Shown: positions 34,733 through 38,814 of the stretch, piece after piece | Position numbering within the stretch: position 1 is the first letter of the stretch | Layout: the number at the start of each line of letters is the position of its first letter | Source of the DNA: Xanthobacteraceae bacterium 501b | Lineage (GTDB): Bacteria; Pseudomonadota; Alphaproteobacteria; Rhizobiales; Xanthobacteraceae | Assembly (NCBI GenBank): GCA_000378025.1 | Contig: KB899087.1 | Coordinates: 558,001-622,000, forward strand | Length of the DNA: 64,000 nt | Reading direction: 5' to 3' | Program-made: the position numbers and the translations under genes | The notes under the pieces: model-generated | Database searches by the model: none | What the model saw: the letters and a program-made list of their open reading frames with translations, nothing else | Told to the model about the DNA's origin: nothing

Positions 34733-35731
34733 ATGCCGATACGCCGTCGCCGGTCCTGGGAGTTGCCAGAGAGCGCGGTCACGCCCGAAGCCACCTATCT
34801 CTCCCGCCGGAATTTGCTCGGCGCGGGGGTGGGCCTGCTCGGCGTCGCGGGCTTGTCCGCCGCGCTCTCCCCCTTCGCCGATGCCGCCCCGGCGGTGGGC
34901 GACCCGGCCAATGACCCGACCAGGGATCTCTATCCCGCGAAGAAGAACCCCGCCTTCACCGCCGGCGACCGGCCGATCACGCCGGAGGAGATTTCCGGCA
35001 ACTACAATAATTTCTATGAGTTCGGCTCGGAGCGTTCCGGCTACCAGATCGCCGACGTGGCGGCGCGCATGCCGCGCCGGCCCTGGACGGTGAAGATCGA
35101 TGGGCTGGTCGAGCAGCCGCGCGAGGTCGGCATCGACGATCTCATCCGCGCCATGGCGCTGGAAGAACGCATCTACCGCCACCGCTGCGTCGAGGCGTGG
35201 TCGATGACGGTGCCGTGGACCGGCTTCGCGGTGAAGGACCTCGTCGCCTATGCCAAGCCGCTCTCGGGCGCCAAATATGTGCGCTTCGAGACCTTCATGA
35301 ATCCGGAAGTGGCGCTGGGCCAGCGCCGCTTCATCTACCCCTGGCCCTATTTCGACGGGCTCACCATGGCGGAGGCCACTAACGACCTCGCCTTCCTCGT
35401 CACCGGGATTTACGGCAAGCCGGCGCCCAACCAGTTCGGCGCGCCGCTGCGCCTCGCCGTGCCATGGAAATACGGATTCAAATCGGTGAAGTCGATTGTC
35501 CGCATCTCCTTCGTGGCCGAGCGGCCGGTAGGGCTGTGGGAGCAGGTGCAGGGCCGCGAATATGGCTTCTGGGCGAACGTGAACCCGGAGGTGCCGCATG
35601 CCCGCTGGAGCCAGGCCAGCGAGCGCGACATCGGCACCGGAGAGCGCCGGCCGACGCTGATCTATAACGGCTATGGCGAAGAGGTCGCCGGCCTCTACAA
35701 GGGGCTTTCGGGCGAGAAGCTGTTCATGTGA
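34733..35731 (+). CDS. msrP: Protein-methionine-sulfoxide reductase catalytic subunit MsrP
   Basis: A 332-residue molybdenum enzyme that repairs oxidised methionines in periplasmic proteins. A Tat signal is present (LSRRNLLGAGVGLLGVAGLS, cleavage near DAAPA). The molybdopterin-binding domain has C152 in YRHRCVEAWSM, the Mo ligand, and the family motifs FYEFGSERSGYQIAD and PWKYGFKSVKSIV. AAGAGGAG precedes the ATG. The usual partner msrQ (haem membrane subunit that supplies electrons) is not adjacent here; a terminator follows the gene. Confidence 0.93.
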   Translation: MPIRRRRSWELPESAVTPEATYLSRRNLLGAGVGLLGVAGLSAALSPFADAAPAVGDPANDPTRDLYPAKKNPAFTAGDRPITPEEISGNYNNFYEFGSERSGYQIADVAARMPRRPWTVKIDGLVEQPREVGIDDLIRAMALEERIYRHRCVEAWSMTVPWTGFAVKDLVAYAKPLSGAKYVRFETFMNPEVALGQRRFIYPWPYFDGLTMAEATNDLAFLVTGIYGKPAPNQFGAPLRLAVPWKYGFKSVKSIVRISFVAERPVGLWEQVQGREYGFWANVNPEVPHARWSQASERDIGTGERRPTLIYNGYGEEVAGLYKGLSGEKLFM

Positions 35732-35761: not shown

Positions 35762-35794
35762 AAAAAAGGCCGGGTCCCAAAAGGGCCCGGCCTT
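35762..35794 (-). terminator. Strong intrinsic terminator of the small RNA, also serving msrP
   Basis: AAGGCCGGG-CCC-TTTT-GGG-A-CCCGGCCTT on the minus strand is followed at once by TTTT. Read on the plus strand, the same stem lies 34 nt past the msrP stop and is followed by AAGTTTT, so it is probably bidirectional. Confidence 0.8.
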
Positions 35795-35890
35795 AAGTTT
35801 TCGCTGCCGAAGCAGCGAACCTTCCAGAGGGGAACAGCCGAAACGCGAGGCGCCTCGGTGTCTGGGGTTCATATGCTCACATCGCGGGCA
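35762..35890 (-). ncRNA. Candidate trans-acting small RNA, AbcR/alpha-r15-like by context
   Basis: On the minus strand about 125 nt can fold into consecutive hairpins: CCAGA...TCTGG closing a domain that holds the CGAGGCGCCTCG palindrome; a loop with CCCCTCT within TTCC...GGAA; a perfect 8-base stem with TTCG loop (35800-35819); and a terminator stem followed by six T. The CU-rich loop is complementary to Shine-Dalgarno sequences, typical of trans-acting RNAs. A -10-like CATTAT lies at 35898-35903, with a perfect palindrome covering the -35 region. The LysR gene 0.7 kb away is LsrB/VtlR-like, the regulator class controlling AbcR RNAs in Rhizobiales. No reading frame explains these structures. 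Family assignment is inference. Confidence 0.62.
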
Positions 35891-35904
35891 CTCTGCAATA
35901 ATGT

Positions 35905-35923
35905 ATGCCTGCATAGCAGGCAT
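35905..35923. promoter_or_regulatory. Perfect 8-3-8 palindrome in the small RNA promoter
   Basis: ATGCCTGC-ATA-GCAGGCAT. It lies directly upstream of the -10-like CATTAT (minus strand) and covers the spacer and -35 position, as for an activator-dependent promoter. A further half-site CATGCCTGC occurs at about 35955-35963. The 8-3-8 form suits a dimeric regulator; the nearby LysR protein is an obvious candidate. Confidence 0.6.
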
Positions 35924-36076
35924 GCGTAATTGCATCGGGCGTTTCGCACGCCTGTCATGCCTGCGAATTGGGCGCCGCGATTACCTCCGAGTCGCCGCGT
36001 GTGCATGATGAAGTCGACTGAAACGCGCGTCATCACTGCAACGCTGCGCCAGCGCAGCCCCGATGGAGGACACGCC

Positions 36077-36595
36077 GTGCCCGTCTTTAGCGCCGCTACG
36101 TGCCACCGTGCCCCTGTTCTGATCGCGGTCCTGATGTCGCTGGCGCCCGCTGGGGCCGCGTGCGCGGCGGAGGCGGCGCGGGTCGCGGTCGCCGATATCG
36201 GCTTCACCGATTCGTCCGGCGAGGCGCGTGACCAGAGCCGCGACCACGAGGCGCGGCGCCTTTCGCTCACCCGGGAGGTGCGAGCCGACATCGCGCGTGC
36301 GGCGAGCCTCGACATGCTGGCTCTTCCCTGCGAGGGCGCCTGCCGGCTGGATGCGGAAGGGGTCGAGACGCTGCGCCAGCGGGCACGGCAGGCGGGGGCC
36401 GGCTTCCTGCTGGTGGGAAGCGTGCACAAGATGAGCACGCTGGTGCTGTCGATGCGGGTGGCGGTGCTCGATGCCGCGAACGGCAAGCTCGTGTTCGAGC
36501 GTCTGCTGAGCTTTCGCGGCGACAATGACGAGGGCTGGCGCCACGCCGGCGCCTATGTCGCCCGCGAGGTGGCCGAGCAACTGCCTCCCCGCTGA
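36077..36595 (+). CDS. Exported DUF2380-like protein
   Basis: A 172-residue preprotein with a signal peptide (APVLIAVLMSLAPAGAACAA). The mature region begins RVAVADIGFTDSSGEARDQS, and carries FLLVGSVHKMSTLVLSMRVA, as in DUF2380 periplasmic proteins; two cysteines (LPCEGACRL) are close together. The GTG at 36077 with GGAGGA 6 nt upstream is preferred over in-frame ATGs further upstream (for example 36005), since it puts the signal peptide at the N-terminus. It converges on the LysR gene with a 7-base gap. Function unknown. Confidence 0.7.
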   Translation: MPVFSAATCHRAPVLIAVLMSLAPAGAACAAEAARVAVADIGFTDSSGEARDQSRDHEARRLSLTREVRADIARAASLDMLALPCEGACRLDAEGVETLRQRARQAGAGFLLVGSVHKMSTLVLSMRVAVLDAANGKLVFERLLSFRGDNDEGWRHAGAYVAREVAEQLPPR

Positions 36596-36602
36596 GCGGC
36601 GC

Positions 36603-37553
36603 TCAGAAGCTCCAGCGCTGCGCCTTGGCGACAAGGAAGTCGCGGAACACCTGGATGCGCGCCACGGAGCGCATTTCCTGCGGGTAGACGAAATAGGCTT
36701 CCAGCGTCGGCGTGGTGCGTTCGGGGAAAAGCTGCACCAGCGTGGCGGAGTCTTCCAGCAGATAGTCCGGCACGATGCCGATGCCGACGCCGCGTTCCAC
36801 CGCCCGCTTCAGCCCGAGCACGTTGTTGACCGAGAGCGAGGGCACGCGGCCCTCCTGGTCGTCTTCCAGCCCGGCGCGCTCCAGCCAGTTCAGCCCCTGG
36901 AAATAGGAGGGGATGGGCCCGCCGAGCAGGATGATGCGGTGCTTGTCCTTGTCCAGCTCGTCCAGTGTGCGCGGATGGCCGTTGCGCTTGAGATATTCCG
37001 CCGAGGCGAAGGCATGGAAATGCACGGTGAACAGCTTGCGCTGGATCAGGTCCGGCTGCACCGGCTGGCGCAGGCGGATAGCGACATCGGCCTCGCGCAT
37101 GGCGAGATCGAGCTCGTCATCGGTGAGAATGAGAGTGATGCGGATATCGGGATAGAGTTCGAGGAACTCGCCGATCCGCGCCGTCAGCCAATGGGTGCCG
37201 AGGCCCATGGTGGTGGTGACGCGCAGTTCGCCGTTCGGCTTCTCGCGCGAATCCGTCAGCTTGGCCCGCGCCGCTTCCAGCTTCATGAACACTTCATGCG
37301 CGGTGCGGTAGAGTAGGTCGCCCTGCTCGGTCAGGATCAGCCCGCGCGCATGGCGGTGGAACAGCGGGATGTTGAGTTCCTGCTCCAGCGCCGAAACTTG
37401 CCGGCTCACCGCCGATTGCGACAGGCCGAGCGCCTCACCCGCATGGGTGAACGACCCCGCCTCCGCCGCGACATGGAACACTTTGAGCTTGTCCCAGTCC
37501 ATGTCGCGAGCGCGATTGGCTTTGTTGTCCATCCGGCGAGGGCCCTCGTTCAT
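36603..37553 (-). CDS. lsrB: LysR-family regulator, LsrB/VtlR type
   Basis: A 316-residue LysR regulator: winged HTH at about 19-80 (DKLKVFHVAAEAGSFTHAGE, LSQSAVSRQVSALEQELNIP) and the effector-binding domain after 105. The trxB neighbour, lrp beyond it and the sequence WDKLKVFHVAAEAGSFTHAG are those of LsrB (Sinorhizobium) and VtlR (Brucella), which control cell-envelope, oxidative-stress and small-RNA genes. The ATG at 37553 overlaps the trxB stop (ATGA), implying coupling; internal starts at 37532 and 37502 are possible. I find no cysteine in the whole protein, although cysteine-based redox sensing has been reported for rhizobial LsrB. Confidence 0.85.
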   Translation of the reverse strand: MNEGPRRMDNKANRARDMDWDKLKVFHVAAEAGSFTHAGEALGLSQSAVSRQVSALEQELNIPLFHRHARGLILTEQGDLLYRTAHEVFMKLEAARAKLTDSREKPNGELRVTTTMGLGTHWLTARIGEFLELYPDIRITLILTDDELDLAMREADVAIRLRQPVQPDLIQRKLFTVHFHAFASAEYLKRNGHPRTLDELDKDKHRIILLGGPIPSYFQGLNWLERAGLEDDQEGRVPSLSVNNVLGLKRAVERGVGIGIVPDYLLEDSATLVQLFPERTTPTLEAYFVYPQEMRSVARIQVFRDFLVAKAQRWSF

Positions 37554-38530
37554 TCGGCGGCTTGCGCGAGCGGCTCGCGGACGGCGAGGAAGCGCTCGAC
37601 CTCCAACGCCGCCATGCAGCCCATGCCGGCGGCGGTTACCGCCTGGCGGAAAATATCGTCGGCGACGTCGCCGGCGGCGAACACGCCTTCCACCGAGGTC
37701 TGGGTGGAGTGCGGCGCCGTCCAGACATAGCCGCTGGGCTTCAGCGTGAGCTGGCCCTGGACCAGATCGGTTGCCGGGGCATGGCCGATGGCGATGAACA
37801 CGCCATCGGCCGGACGCTCGGAGAGCGCGCCGGTGGCGACATCCTTCAGCACCACGCCCGTCACCTTCGGCGGCTCGTGCTGGCCCTTCACCTCATGCAG
37901 GGCGGCGTTCCACACCACCTCCACCTTGGGATGGGCGAACAGGCGCTCCTGCAGGATCTTCTCGGCGCGGAAGCTGTCGCGCCGGTGTACGACCGTGACC
38001 TTGGAGGCGAAATTGGTGAGGAACAGCGCTTCCTCGACCGCGGTGTTGCCGCCGCCGATGACCATGACTTCCTTGCCACGATAGAAGAACCCGTCGCAGG
38101 TGGCGCAGGCGGAAACGCCGTGGCCGCGATAAGCCTGCTCGGATTCGAGATCGAGCCAGCGCGCCTGCGCGCCGGTGGCGAGGATGATGGTCTCGGCGAT
38201 CCACACCGTGCCGGAATCGGTTTCGGCGCGGAAGGGGCGGCGGGACAGGTCGAGCCGCGTCACCAGGTCGTTGACGATGCGGGTGCCCATCTTCTCCGCC
38301 TGCGCCTGCATCTGCTCCATCAGCCACGGGCCCTGGATCGGATCGGCGAAGCCGGGATAGTTCTCGACATCGGTGGTGATGGTCAGCTGTCCGCCGGGCT
38401 GGATGCCCTGGATCAGCACCGGTTCCAGCATGGCCCGCGCGGCATAGACGGCGGCGGTATAGCCGGCCGGGCCCGAACCGATGATGAGGACCTTGACGTG
38501 GTTGGCCGGGCTGGCGGAGGGGGCCGACAT
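37550..38530 (-). CDS. trxB: Thioredoxin reductase
   Basis: A 326-residue FAD/NADPH enzyme that reduces thioredoxin. The FAD motif GSGPAGYTAAVYAARA lies at about 18-33, the active-site disulfide in ACATCDGFFYRG, the NADPH motif VIGGGNTAVEEALFL, and the C-terminal FAD contact GVFAAGDVADD. The start at 38530 is chosen by homology; the frame is open to 38761 but the N-terminal extension is Arg-rich noise. It is the first gene of a two-gene operon with lsrB (4-base overlap) and is divergent from lrp, an arrangement shared with rhizobia. Confidence 0.94.
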   Translation of the reverse strand: MSAPSASPANHVKVLIIGSGPAGYTAAVYAARAMLEPVLIQGIQPGGQLTITTDVENYPGFADPIQGPWLMEQMQAQAEKMGTRIVNDLVTRLDLSRRPFRAETDSGTVWIAETIILATGAQARWLDLESEQAYRGHGVSACATCDGFFYRGKEVMVIGGGNTAVEEALFLTNFASKVTVVHRRDSFRAEKILQERLFAHPKVEVVWNAALHEVKGQHEPPKVTGVVLKDVATGALSERPADGVFIAIGHAPATDLVQGQLTLKPSGYVWTAPHSTQTSVEGVFAAGDVADDIFRQAVTAAGMGCMAALEVERFLAVREPLAQAAE

Positions 38531-38814
38531 GGCAGGCTCACTGTGTTGCGACGAACGATTCGCCGGGCGGGACGATCCGGCTGTGGAGACGCTGCTGGGG
38601 CCCGCGCCTGCGCGCGCTGCAAAGGCCGCCCCGGCAGCCATGCGAAAATGTAGGGGCTGACCTGGGCAACCGCAAGGCAGCGGCCTTCTATCCATTAGTT
38701 TTCCATAAGGAAGATTGCGCGAGGCTCGCGCGCAAGATAATTGCTCTCGCGGCCGCCGCACTCCTCGCGCTGCCGCAGGCGCGCCGCCCCGGCCGCCGGA
38801 AACGGAGACCCCGC

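Follow-up and report, generated by a model that had tools for sequence, protein, structure and literature searches.

The closest described relatives of the RNA discussed here are the AbcR sRNAs. In the cited description of S. meliloti, AbcR1 and AbcR2 carry an aSD1 motif, CUCCUCCC, in the first hairpin and an aSD2 motif, UUCCCCUC, between hairpins 1 and 2, the latter within an ultraconserved stretch (PMC8844928). The Brucella AbcR RNAs are described with the motifs M1, CUCCCA, and M2, GUUCCC (PMC5461406), and AbcR2 of A. tumefaciens is reported to lack M1, so that M1 is not strictly required (PMC7486931). The LsrB/VtlR box has the consensus GCAT-N3-TG-N3-T in the cited accounts (PMC7486931, PMC8844928), and that of S. 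meliloti abcR1 is placed at -61 to -49 (PMC8844928). A second family, alpha-r8, has a conserved 10-mer (PMC12559287) and includes MmgR, whose gene in S. meliloti is controlled negatively by AniA and positively by NtrC according to a reference cited in PMC10746234. The AbcR/alpha-r15 literature also states that a few S. meliloti chromosomal sRNAs, which it leaves unnamed, occur in Xanthobacteraceae.

The host analysed here, a soil bacterium, belongs to Ancylobacter. The best explanation of the locus as a whole, to which we give a probability of about 0.88, is that it is the abcR of this organism: LsrB-activated, equipped with aSD2 only, and repressing mRNAs for solute uptake. Orthology, structure, box, seed and complementary sites were observed by computation. 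In the window, that is, the whole 64-kb stretch of DNA analysed, the predicted AbcR-type sRNA (35762..35862, minus strand) is intergenic between msrP and a PF11684 gene, followed by lsrB and trxB. The convergent msrP (34733..35731, plus strand; NF003767, 401.7 bits against a cut-off of 207) is outside the sRNA/lsrB system. The PF11684 gene (about 36020-36595, plus strand), to which its family assigns no function, lies between the sRNA and the lsrB/vtlR-type LysR regulator gene (36603..37553, minus strand; HTH_1 and LysR_substrate domains). The thioredoxin reductase gene trxB spans 37550..38761 on the minus strand as the longest ORF (TIGR01292, 402 bits, cut-off 343), and its true start is probably inside that frame. 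The name LsrB is applied to 36603..37553 because of the gene neighbourhood and the published trxB-vtlR order (PMC7486931); in Agrobacterium, lsrB and trxB likewise adjoin the AbcR locus, as described in the same source. The window thus has the abcR1-type setting beside lsrB/vtlR and trxB, with lsrB as the next same-strand gene upstream of the sRNA and a single opposite-strand gene intervening.

This order was followed in other genomes by a scan for the core, whose pattern holds GGAAGG and places GGAGG cores (as in the distant genome G059) outside the sample. The scan gave at least 118 stretches, and lsrB was found in 101, each time upstream and on the same strand as the sRNA core (101/101). 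The 17 without an lsrB match were left out; several are plainly chance (Arthrobacter, Treponema, Brachymonas, Ruminiclostridium), and one is an Ancylobacter stretch ending short of lsrB. Among the loci listed with both core and lsrB, 27 form an Ancylobacter/Xanthobacter/Aquabacter clade, defined by an LsrB identity of at least 75% and including a few further Xanthobacteraceae and Rhizobiales records, and 74 lie outside it. In the clade loci among the first 80 listed, some 150-950 nt separate lsrB from the sRNA core. One genome that groups with the Ancylobacter genus and has the same locus is filed under Bosea sp. 117 (NZ_JNLC01000012.1; L234, G003) and is probably misnamed. A narrower alignment of 30 loci, all recruited by similarity to the window, comprises 29 from the genus, with the window among them and G003 not included, plus G030.

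The promoter is well fixed in this alignment: TTG-N3 stands exactly 17 nt upstream of the -10 element in 30/30 loci, and CATAT is found at the -10 in 28/30. In the window the two elements are TTGCAG (-35; 35893..35898, minus strand) and CATATG (-10; 35870..35875, minus strand); read as 35898-35893 and 35875-35870, they place the start of the sRNA near 35862, and its length, with the end given by the terminator, is therefore about 101 nt. The original prediction had taken CATTAT for the -10, which is not conserved and overlaps the true -35, and its RNA of about 129 nt (35890-35762) has to be shortened. The perfect 8-3-8 palindrome that it described is present (plus strand, 35905-35923), not over the -35 as had been thought but upstream of it, at about -63 to -43. 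It extends to GCATGCCTGCTATGCAGGCAT (35905..35925, minus strand), which is conserved in the 30-locus alignment and encloses, as its left part, a predicted LsrB/VtlR box, GCATGCCTGCTAT (35913..35925, minus strand). This matches GCAT-N3-TG-N3-T exactly and, counted from the predicted start, lies at about -63 to -51, so that an LsrB/VtlR box lies upstream of a sigma-70 promoter, as in abcR1-type genes. The proposed link to LsrB/VtlR therefore holds at the sequence level: the published box is found in the palindrome at nearly the published distance, and lsrB and trxB adjoin.

The box is exact in 26/30 aligned loci and off by one base in the remaining four; the longer form GCAT-N3-TG-N3-TGC-N2-GCAT occurs without mismatch once in the 5.1-Mb genome, at the sRNA locus. 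A more symmetric reading of the site, GCAT-N7-ATGC, is likewise possible in many loci. Of the listed core-and-lsrB loci, CAT-N7-ATG lies upstream in 27/27 of the clade and 30/74 others, and the asymmetric box in 18/27 and 31/74, respectively; one form or the other is exact in 39/74 non-clade loci. A constant 50 nt separates box and -10 in all of the aligned loci with an exact box (26/26), and the box sits near the position it has in S. meliloti abcR1, which makes it unlikely that the sRNA is an AbcR outside the control of LsrB, with the palindrome bound by another regulator, even though LsrB binding is predicted from sequence, the 13-base box has only seven fixed letters and matches seven times in the 64-kb window (both strands), and 35 of the 74 other lsrB-linked loci listed have neither box form exact, so that about half of the distant loci lack an exact copy of either.

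The family to which the RNA belongs was approached with covariance models. At the Rfam gathering threshold, only a tRNA is found in the window. The window search dropped one overlapping match from the clan of suhB, which we infer to be ar15, and its other low-score matches (E 0.06-10; sX11, SNORA14 and ar35 among them) were taken as chance. The Rfam/Infernal search put forward with the original prediction gave a divided answer: ar15 (RF02345) matches the own genome at E<=0.1 at this locus only, and the score, 26.5 bits, is below the cut-off of 40. When 61 genomes were searched, ar15 matches at E<=0.1 appeared in 25 of the 30 genus genomes, all 25 of them at this locus and below the cut-off, with a second, weak match in one (G023); the other five had no ar15 match at that threshold. 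Taken with the exact aSD2/M2 seed and the binding-protein sites described below, these matches support the AbcR/alpha-r15 hypothesis with which the work began.

The suhB match had first pointed to an MmgR-like RNA, a reading given up once ar15 had been searched. Elsewhere, this genome carries three suhB copies above the cut-off (65.0, 64.4 and 60.6 bits; of 21 RF00519 matches at E<=1 only these three were counted as copies), and the true copies contain GGGCGTTTCCTCCCTAGACTT, which is absent from the RNA of the abcR locus. They also contain UUUCCUCCC, which we take to be the conserved 10-mer of the alpha-r8 family and which is absent from 35762-35862. The RNA moreover stands at the lsrB locus and has aSD2. 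That it is a divergent MmgR/suhB (alpha-r8) sRNA instead of an AbcR is accordingly very improbable, although RF00519 scores 38.7 bits here against a cut-off of 41, more than ar15, and reaches 41.1 bits in a relative (G028). A suhB score of this kind is to be expected of an AbcR, because alpha-r15 members are described as partly homologous to SuhB (PMC7143759) and a match from the same clan was dropped in the window.

Canonical members of the family are found at the same kind of locus in the distant genome G059, which has three ar15 copies (112-127 bits). Two of them (127 and 119 bits) adjoin its lsrB and carry AGCTGTTCCCCTCTGGAGG; in both, the core is again UUCCCCUC and the promoter reads TTG-N17-CATATC, and the LsrB box is exact in the first and one base off in the second. 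Of 249 genomes of the order, 103 contain a match (E<=0.01) to a covariance model built from the 30-locus alignment, a count that depends on rough E-values and includes weaker, unchecked matches. The single own-genome match of this model at E<=0.01 scores 105.6 bits, with the own sequence being part of the model. The two sibling copies typical of AbcR are not found in the own genome, which has one. A contig filed as Candidatus Adlerbacteria (MEWW01000017.1; L170), possibly an alphaproteobacterial contaminant, also holds AbcR-like sequence in which CCTCCC and the exact core are both present.

By fold and covariation, the RNA has the three stem-loops of an AbcR, the last being an intrinsic terminator. 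Stem-loop 1 (35833..35862, minus strand), supported by folds and covariation, is short and has no aSD1 motif. An ultraconserved block of 19 nt, GCUGUUCCCCUCUGGAAGG (35820..35838, minus strand), is identical in 30/30 aligned loci. Stem-loop 2 (35800..35819, minus strand) consists of an 8-bp stem with a UUCG loop, and helix 3 is paired in 100% of cells; the terminator (35762..35792, minus strand), recognised from sequence and fold, ends in T6. Both the stem with its TTCG loop and the six-T terminator had been predicted correctly. The segment 35890-35762 folds at -62.4 kcal/mol (z -5.5), and the trimmed RNA, 35862-35762, at -55.1 kcal/mol (z -6.1), with 0/200 shuffles as good. The CU-rich loop of the original prediction was confirmed as a segment, and its state differs between folds: for the 101-nt RNA, the minimum-energy fold shows it as a single-stranded linker, whereas the consensus fold of the alignment has a small hairpin with CCUCU in its loop, closed by five pairs whose invariance supports neither loop nor linker.

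Twenty-seven pairs make up the consensus fold of the 30 loci. Covariation was counted for 22 of these over 28 distinct rows, leaving out the five invariant core pairs; 95.4% of the cells are paired, and changes on both sides occur in 12/22 counted pairs. Double-sided changes were seen in 58 cells; shuffles gave 17.7 +- 3.9, and sliding the partners gave 0-7. The comparison is tilted towards the structure, which was drawn from this very alignment of related sequences. One of five covariation measures, further pair types, was not above shuffles (330 of 500).

The aSD2 seed, UUCCCCUC (35827..35834, minus strand), lies between hairpins 1 and 2 and within the GCUGUUCCCCUCUGGAAGG block, and matches the published motifs exactly, the match to Brucella M2 GUUCCC beginning one base upstream. 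Read as 35834-35827, it is unpaired in the minimum-energy fold and partly within the small hairpin in the consensus fold. In hairpin 1 of the window RNA, neither aSD1 CUCCUCCC nor M1 CUCCCA is found. With CTCCC as a proxy for aSD1, scored by sequence and not by folding the hairpins of each locus, the motif is absent from the 75 nt ahead of the core in 27/27 core loci of Ancylobacter/Xanthobacter/Aquabacter and near kin, and present there in 72/74 other lsrB-linked loci, the exceptions being Enterovirga (L161) and a soil MAG (L231). The first 80 listed loci give the same picture (CTCCC in 0/19 of the clade and 48/49 others). Within the family, G031-G033 keep CTCCC, and G030 and G035 are without it. 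Box and core are separated by 82-92 nt in clade loci and, for the most part, by 108-123 nt in the others (80 loci), which points to a 5' part that has become some 25-30 nt shorter. Judged from these sequences, only one of the two pairing segments described for AbcR seems to survive in Ancylobacter, Xanthobacter and Aquabacter.

Candidate targets were sought as AGAGGGGAA followed by ATG within 18 nt, which occurs at eight sites in the own genome, all of which were examined. The five covered by the family scan lie before genes whose products Pfam recognises as SBP_bac_3 (two), SBP_bac_5, DctQ and YkuD (one each), that is, three ABC binding proteins, a TRAP permease subunit and an L,D-transpeptidase (YkuD); the other three precede short frames of 18-109 aa. 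A permuted purine word, a small control, gave nine matches at eight sites, none before an ORF of at least 50 aa. The purine-rich target word resembles any Shine-Dalgarno, so that short matches say little, and target duplex energies were disregarded, as they were computed without the cost of opening the sRNA stretch. Four other genus genomes have 19 AGAGGGGAA matches, of which 18 were examined (one was a duplicate). Six of the 18 precede the two binding-protein genes, with the same SBP_bac_3 gene recurring in 4/4 relatives and the SBP_bac_5 gene in 2/4; one falls on abcR itself, on the opposite strand, and the others are mostly at genes other than uptake genes. In G025, AGAGGGGAA is found before an SDR-type reductase that by eye resembles acetoacetyl-CoA reductase (PhaB), perhaps a connection with carbon storage there (L274; G025:C3:125746).

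The SBP_bac_3 site is the most widely shared one. CAGAGGGGAACANCATG, with at most one mismatch, occurs in 27/30 genus genomes. Of the 41 matches listed, 30 were examined: in 22/30 genus genomes the site precedes an orthologue of the own SBP_bac_3 protein, an amino-acid binding protein (72-100% identity, at least 257 aa, own gene included), and 10-18 nt at the gene start are perfectly complementary to the sRNA core. The frame after the conserved site measures only 33-39 aa in G005 and G017 (L302, L327, L329), possibly a broken copy or a frame shift. The remaining six genus genomes have no site of the CAGAGGGGAACANCATG pattern at the SBP_bac_3 gene, where a weaker site is possible.

It is hardly credible that the functional elements here are just a LysR operator and a bidirectional terminator of msrP, and that the RNA between them has no function: the terminator stem (35762..35792) could also be used by the convergent msrP, and some loci differ in flanking sequence at the msrP side, but the longest invariant stretch in the 30 loci is the core between the hairpins and not the terminator, the core is complementary to conserved gene starts, and helices 1-3 vary with compensation in the alignment, contrary to the pattern of unconserved stems beside a conserved msrP terminator that had been named in advance as speaking against an sRNA.

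If the locus is an LsrB-controlled abcR, as we prefer, LsrB made from the nearby gene would bind the palindrome, with the box near -57 as its left part, and would activate transcription from the sigma-70 promoter TTGCAG-N17-CATATG. The RNA of about 101 nt would fold into a short 5' hairpin, a conserved core, the UUCG hairpin and the terminator. Its core, with aSD2 UUCCCCUC, would then pair, in an Hfq-dependent way, with the ribosome-binding sites of solute-uptake mRNAs, chiefly those for amino-acid and peptide ABC binding proteins, whose translation would be blocked. In the Ancylobacter/Xanthobacter/Aquabacter lineage aSD1 would have been lost, with the RNA working via aSD2 alone.

A similar box precedes a second sRNA. 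MmgR arrays were examined in 19 of the 30 genus genomes (50 copies, in stretches of about 3 kb, the first copy being the first within a stretch), and the exact box GCATGGCTGCYAT stands before the first copy in 16 of the 19 and before no later copy, about 121 nt ahead of the MmgR core motif. One example (L088; G000:C1:242660-242680, plus strand) precedes the first copy of a tandem suhB/MmgR array. A promoter-like series, TTG-N3, 16-18 nt, CATATT, follows the box in 15/16. In an alignment of 17 first copies, of which 16 have the box exactly and one has it off by a base, it was among the most conserved stretches of an otherwise variable region; outside the genus, a box match precedes 1/15 MmgR copies (12 loci). 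Given this shared box, LsrB may drive both AbcR and MmgR. No statement on LsrB control of MmgR was found in the portions of the literature seen to name both, and nothing was found on VtlR together with suhB.

A further, rather doubtful proposal is that the ancestral AbcR seeds were divided between two sRNAs under one redox-responsive LysR: AbcR would keep aSD2 (UUCCCCUC), and LsrB would have acquired the first tandem MmgR copy, whose CCUCCC resembles the lost aSD1. The contrast between 16/19 boxed first copies in the genus and 1/15 copies outside speaks for it; against it, G030 and G035 are without aSD1, yet the box is found on 0/4 of their MmgR copies examined. If true, the rewiring of a promoter would have moved a seed from one RNA to a second, related one.

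The family, the regulator and the mechanism are already known; what looks new are two details, the lineage with a single seed and the box before MmgR. Nothing was found in the literature on AbcR1 in Xanthobacteraceae, an earlier mention being possible; no AbcR was among the matches listed for Xanthobacter, Azorhizobium or Starkeya, in a whole-word search that misses AbcR1, and Ancylobacter with small RNA gave only unrelated literature. The LsrB-AbcR circuit, studied in a few symbionts and pathogens, would be extended to Xanthobacteraceae in which Rfam misses it. A whole lineage whose AbcR is without one of two seeds amounts to a natural experiment, and a comparison of target sets with and without aSD1 would reveal the role of each seed. 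The conserved box before MmgR predicts that one regulator serves uptake silencing and an sRNA that in Sinorhizobium is linked to carbon storage.

Among the known systems, VrsA of Agrobacterium, an sRNA directly activated by VtlR via the same kind of box (PMC7486931), is likened to the Ancylobacter RNA by description only. NfeR1 (alpha-r14, Sinorhizobium) is described as another LsrB-activated sRNA (PMC10746234), set apart, also by description only, by its three identical aSD motifs (PMC8844928). MmgR, suhB and SisA-D (alpha-r8, RF00519) have a similar 3' part and terminator, and the RNA scores just under their cut-off; unlike them, it has no UUUCCUCCC, and clear suhB copies exist elsewhere in the same genome. 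AbcR1 and AbcR2 (alpha-r15, RF02345; Sinorhizobium, Agrobacterium, Brucella) differ from it in having aSD1/M1, in occurring as a pair instead of a single copy, and in length, the Ancylobacter RNA falling 13-20 nt short of the 114 and 121 nt given for S. meliloti (PMC8844928) and scoring below the Rfam cut-off. With these two, the RNA has in common the lsrB/trxB locus, the LsrB box and its distance, the hairpins with a terminator, the aSD2/M2 seed and the candidate sites in ABC-transporter mRNAs.
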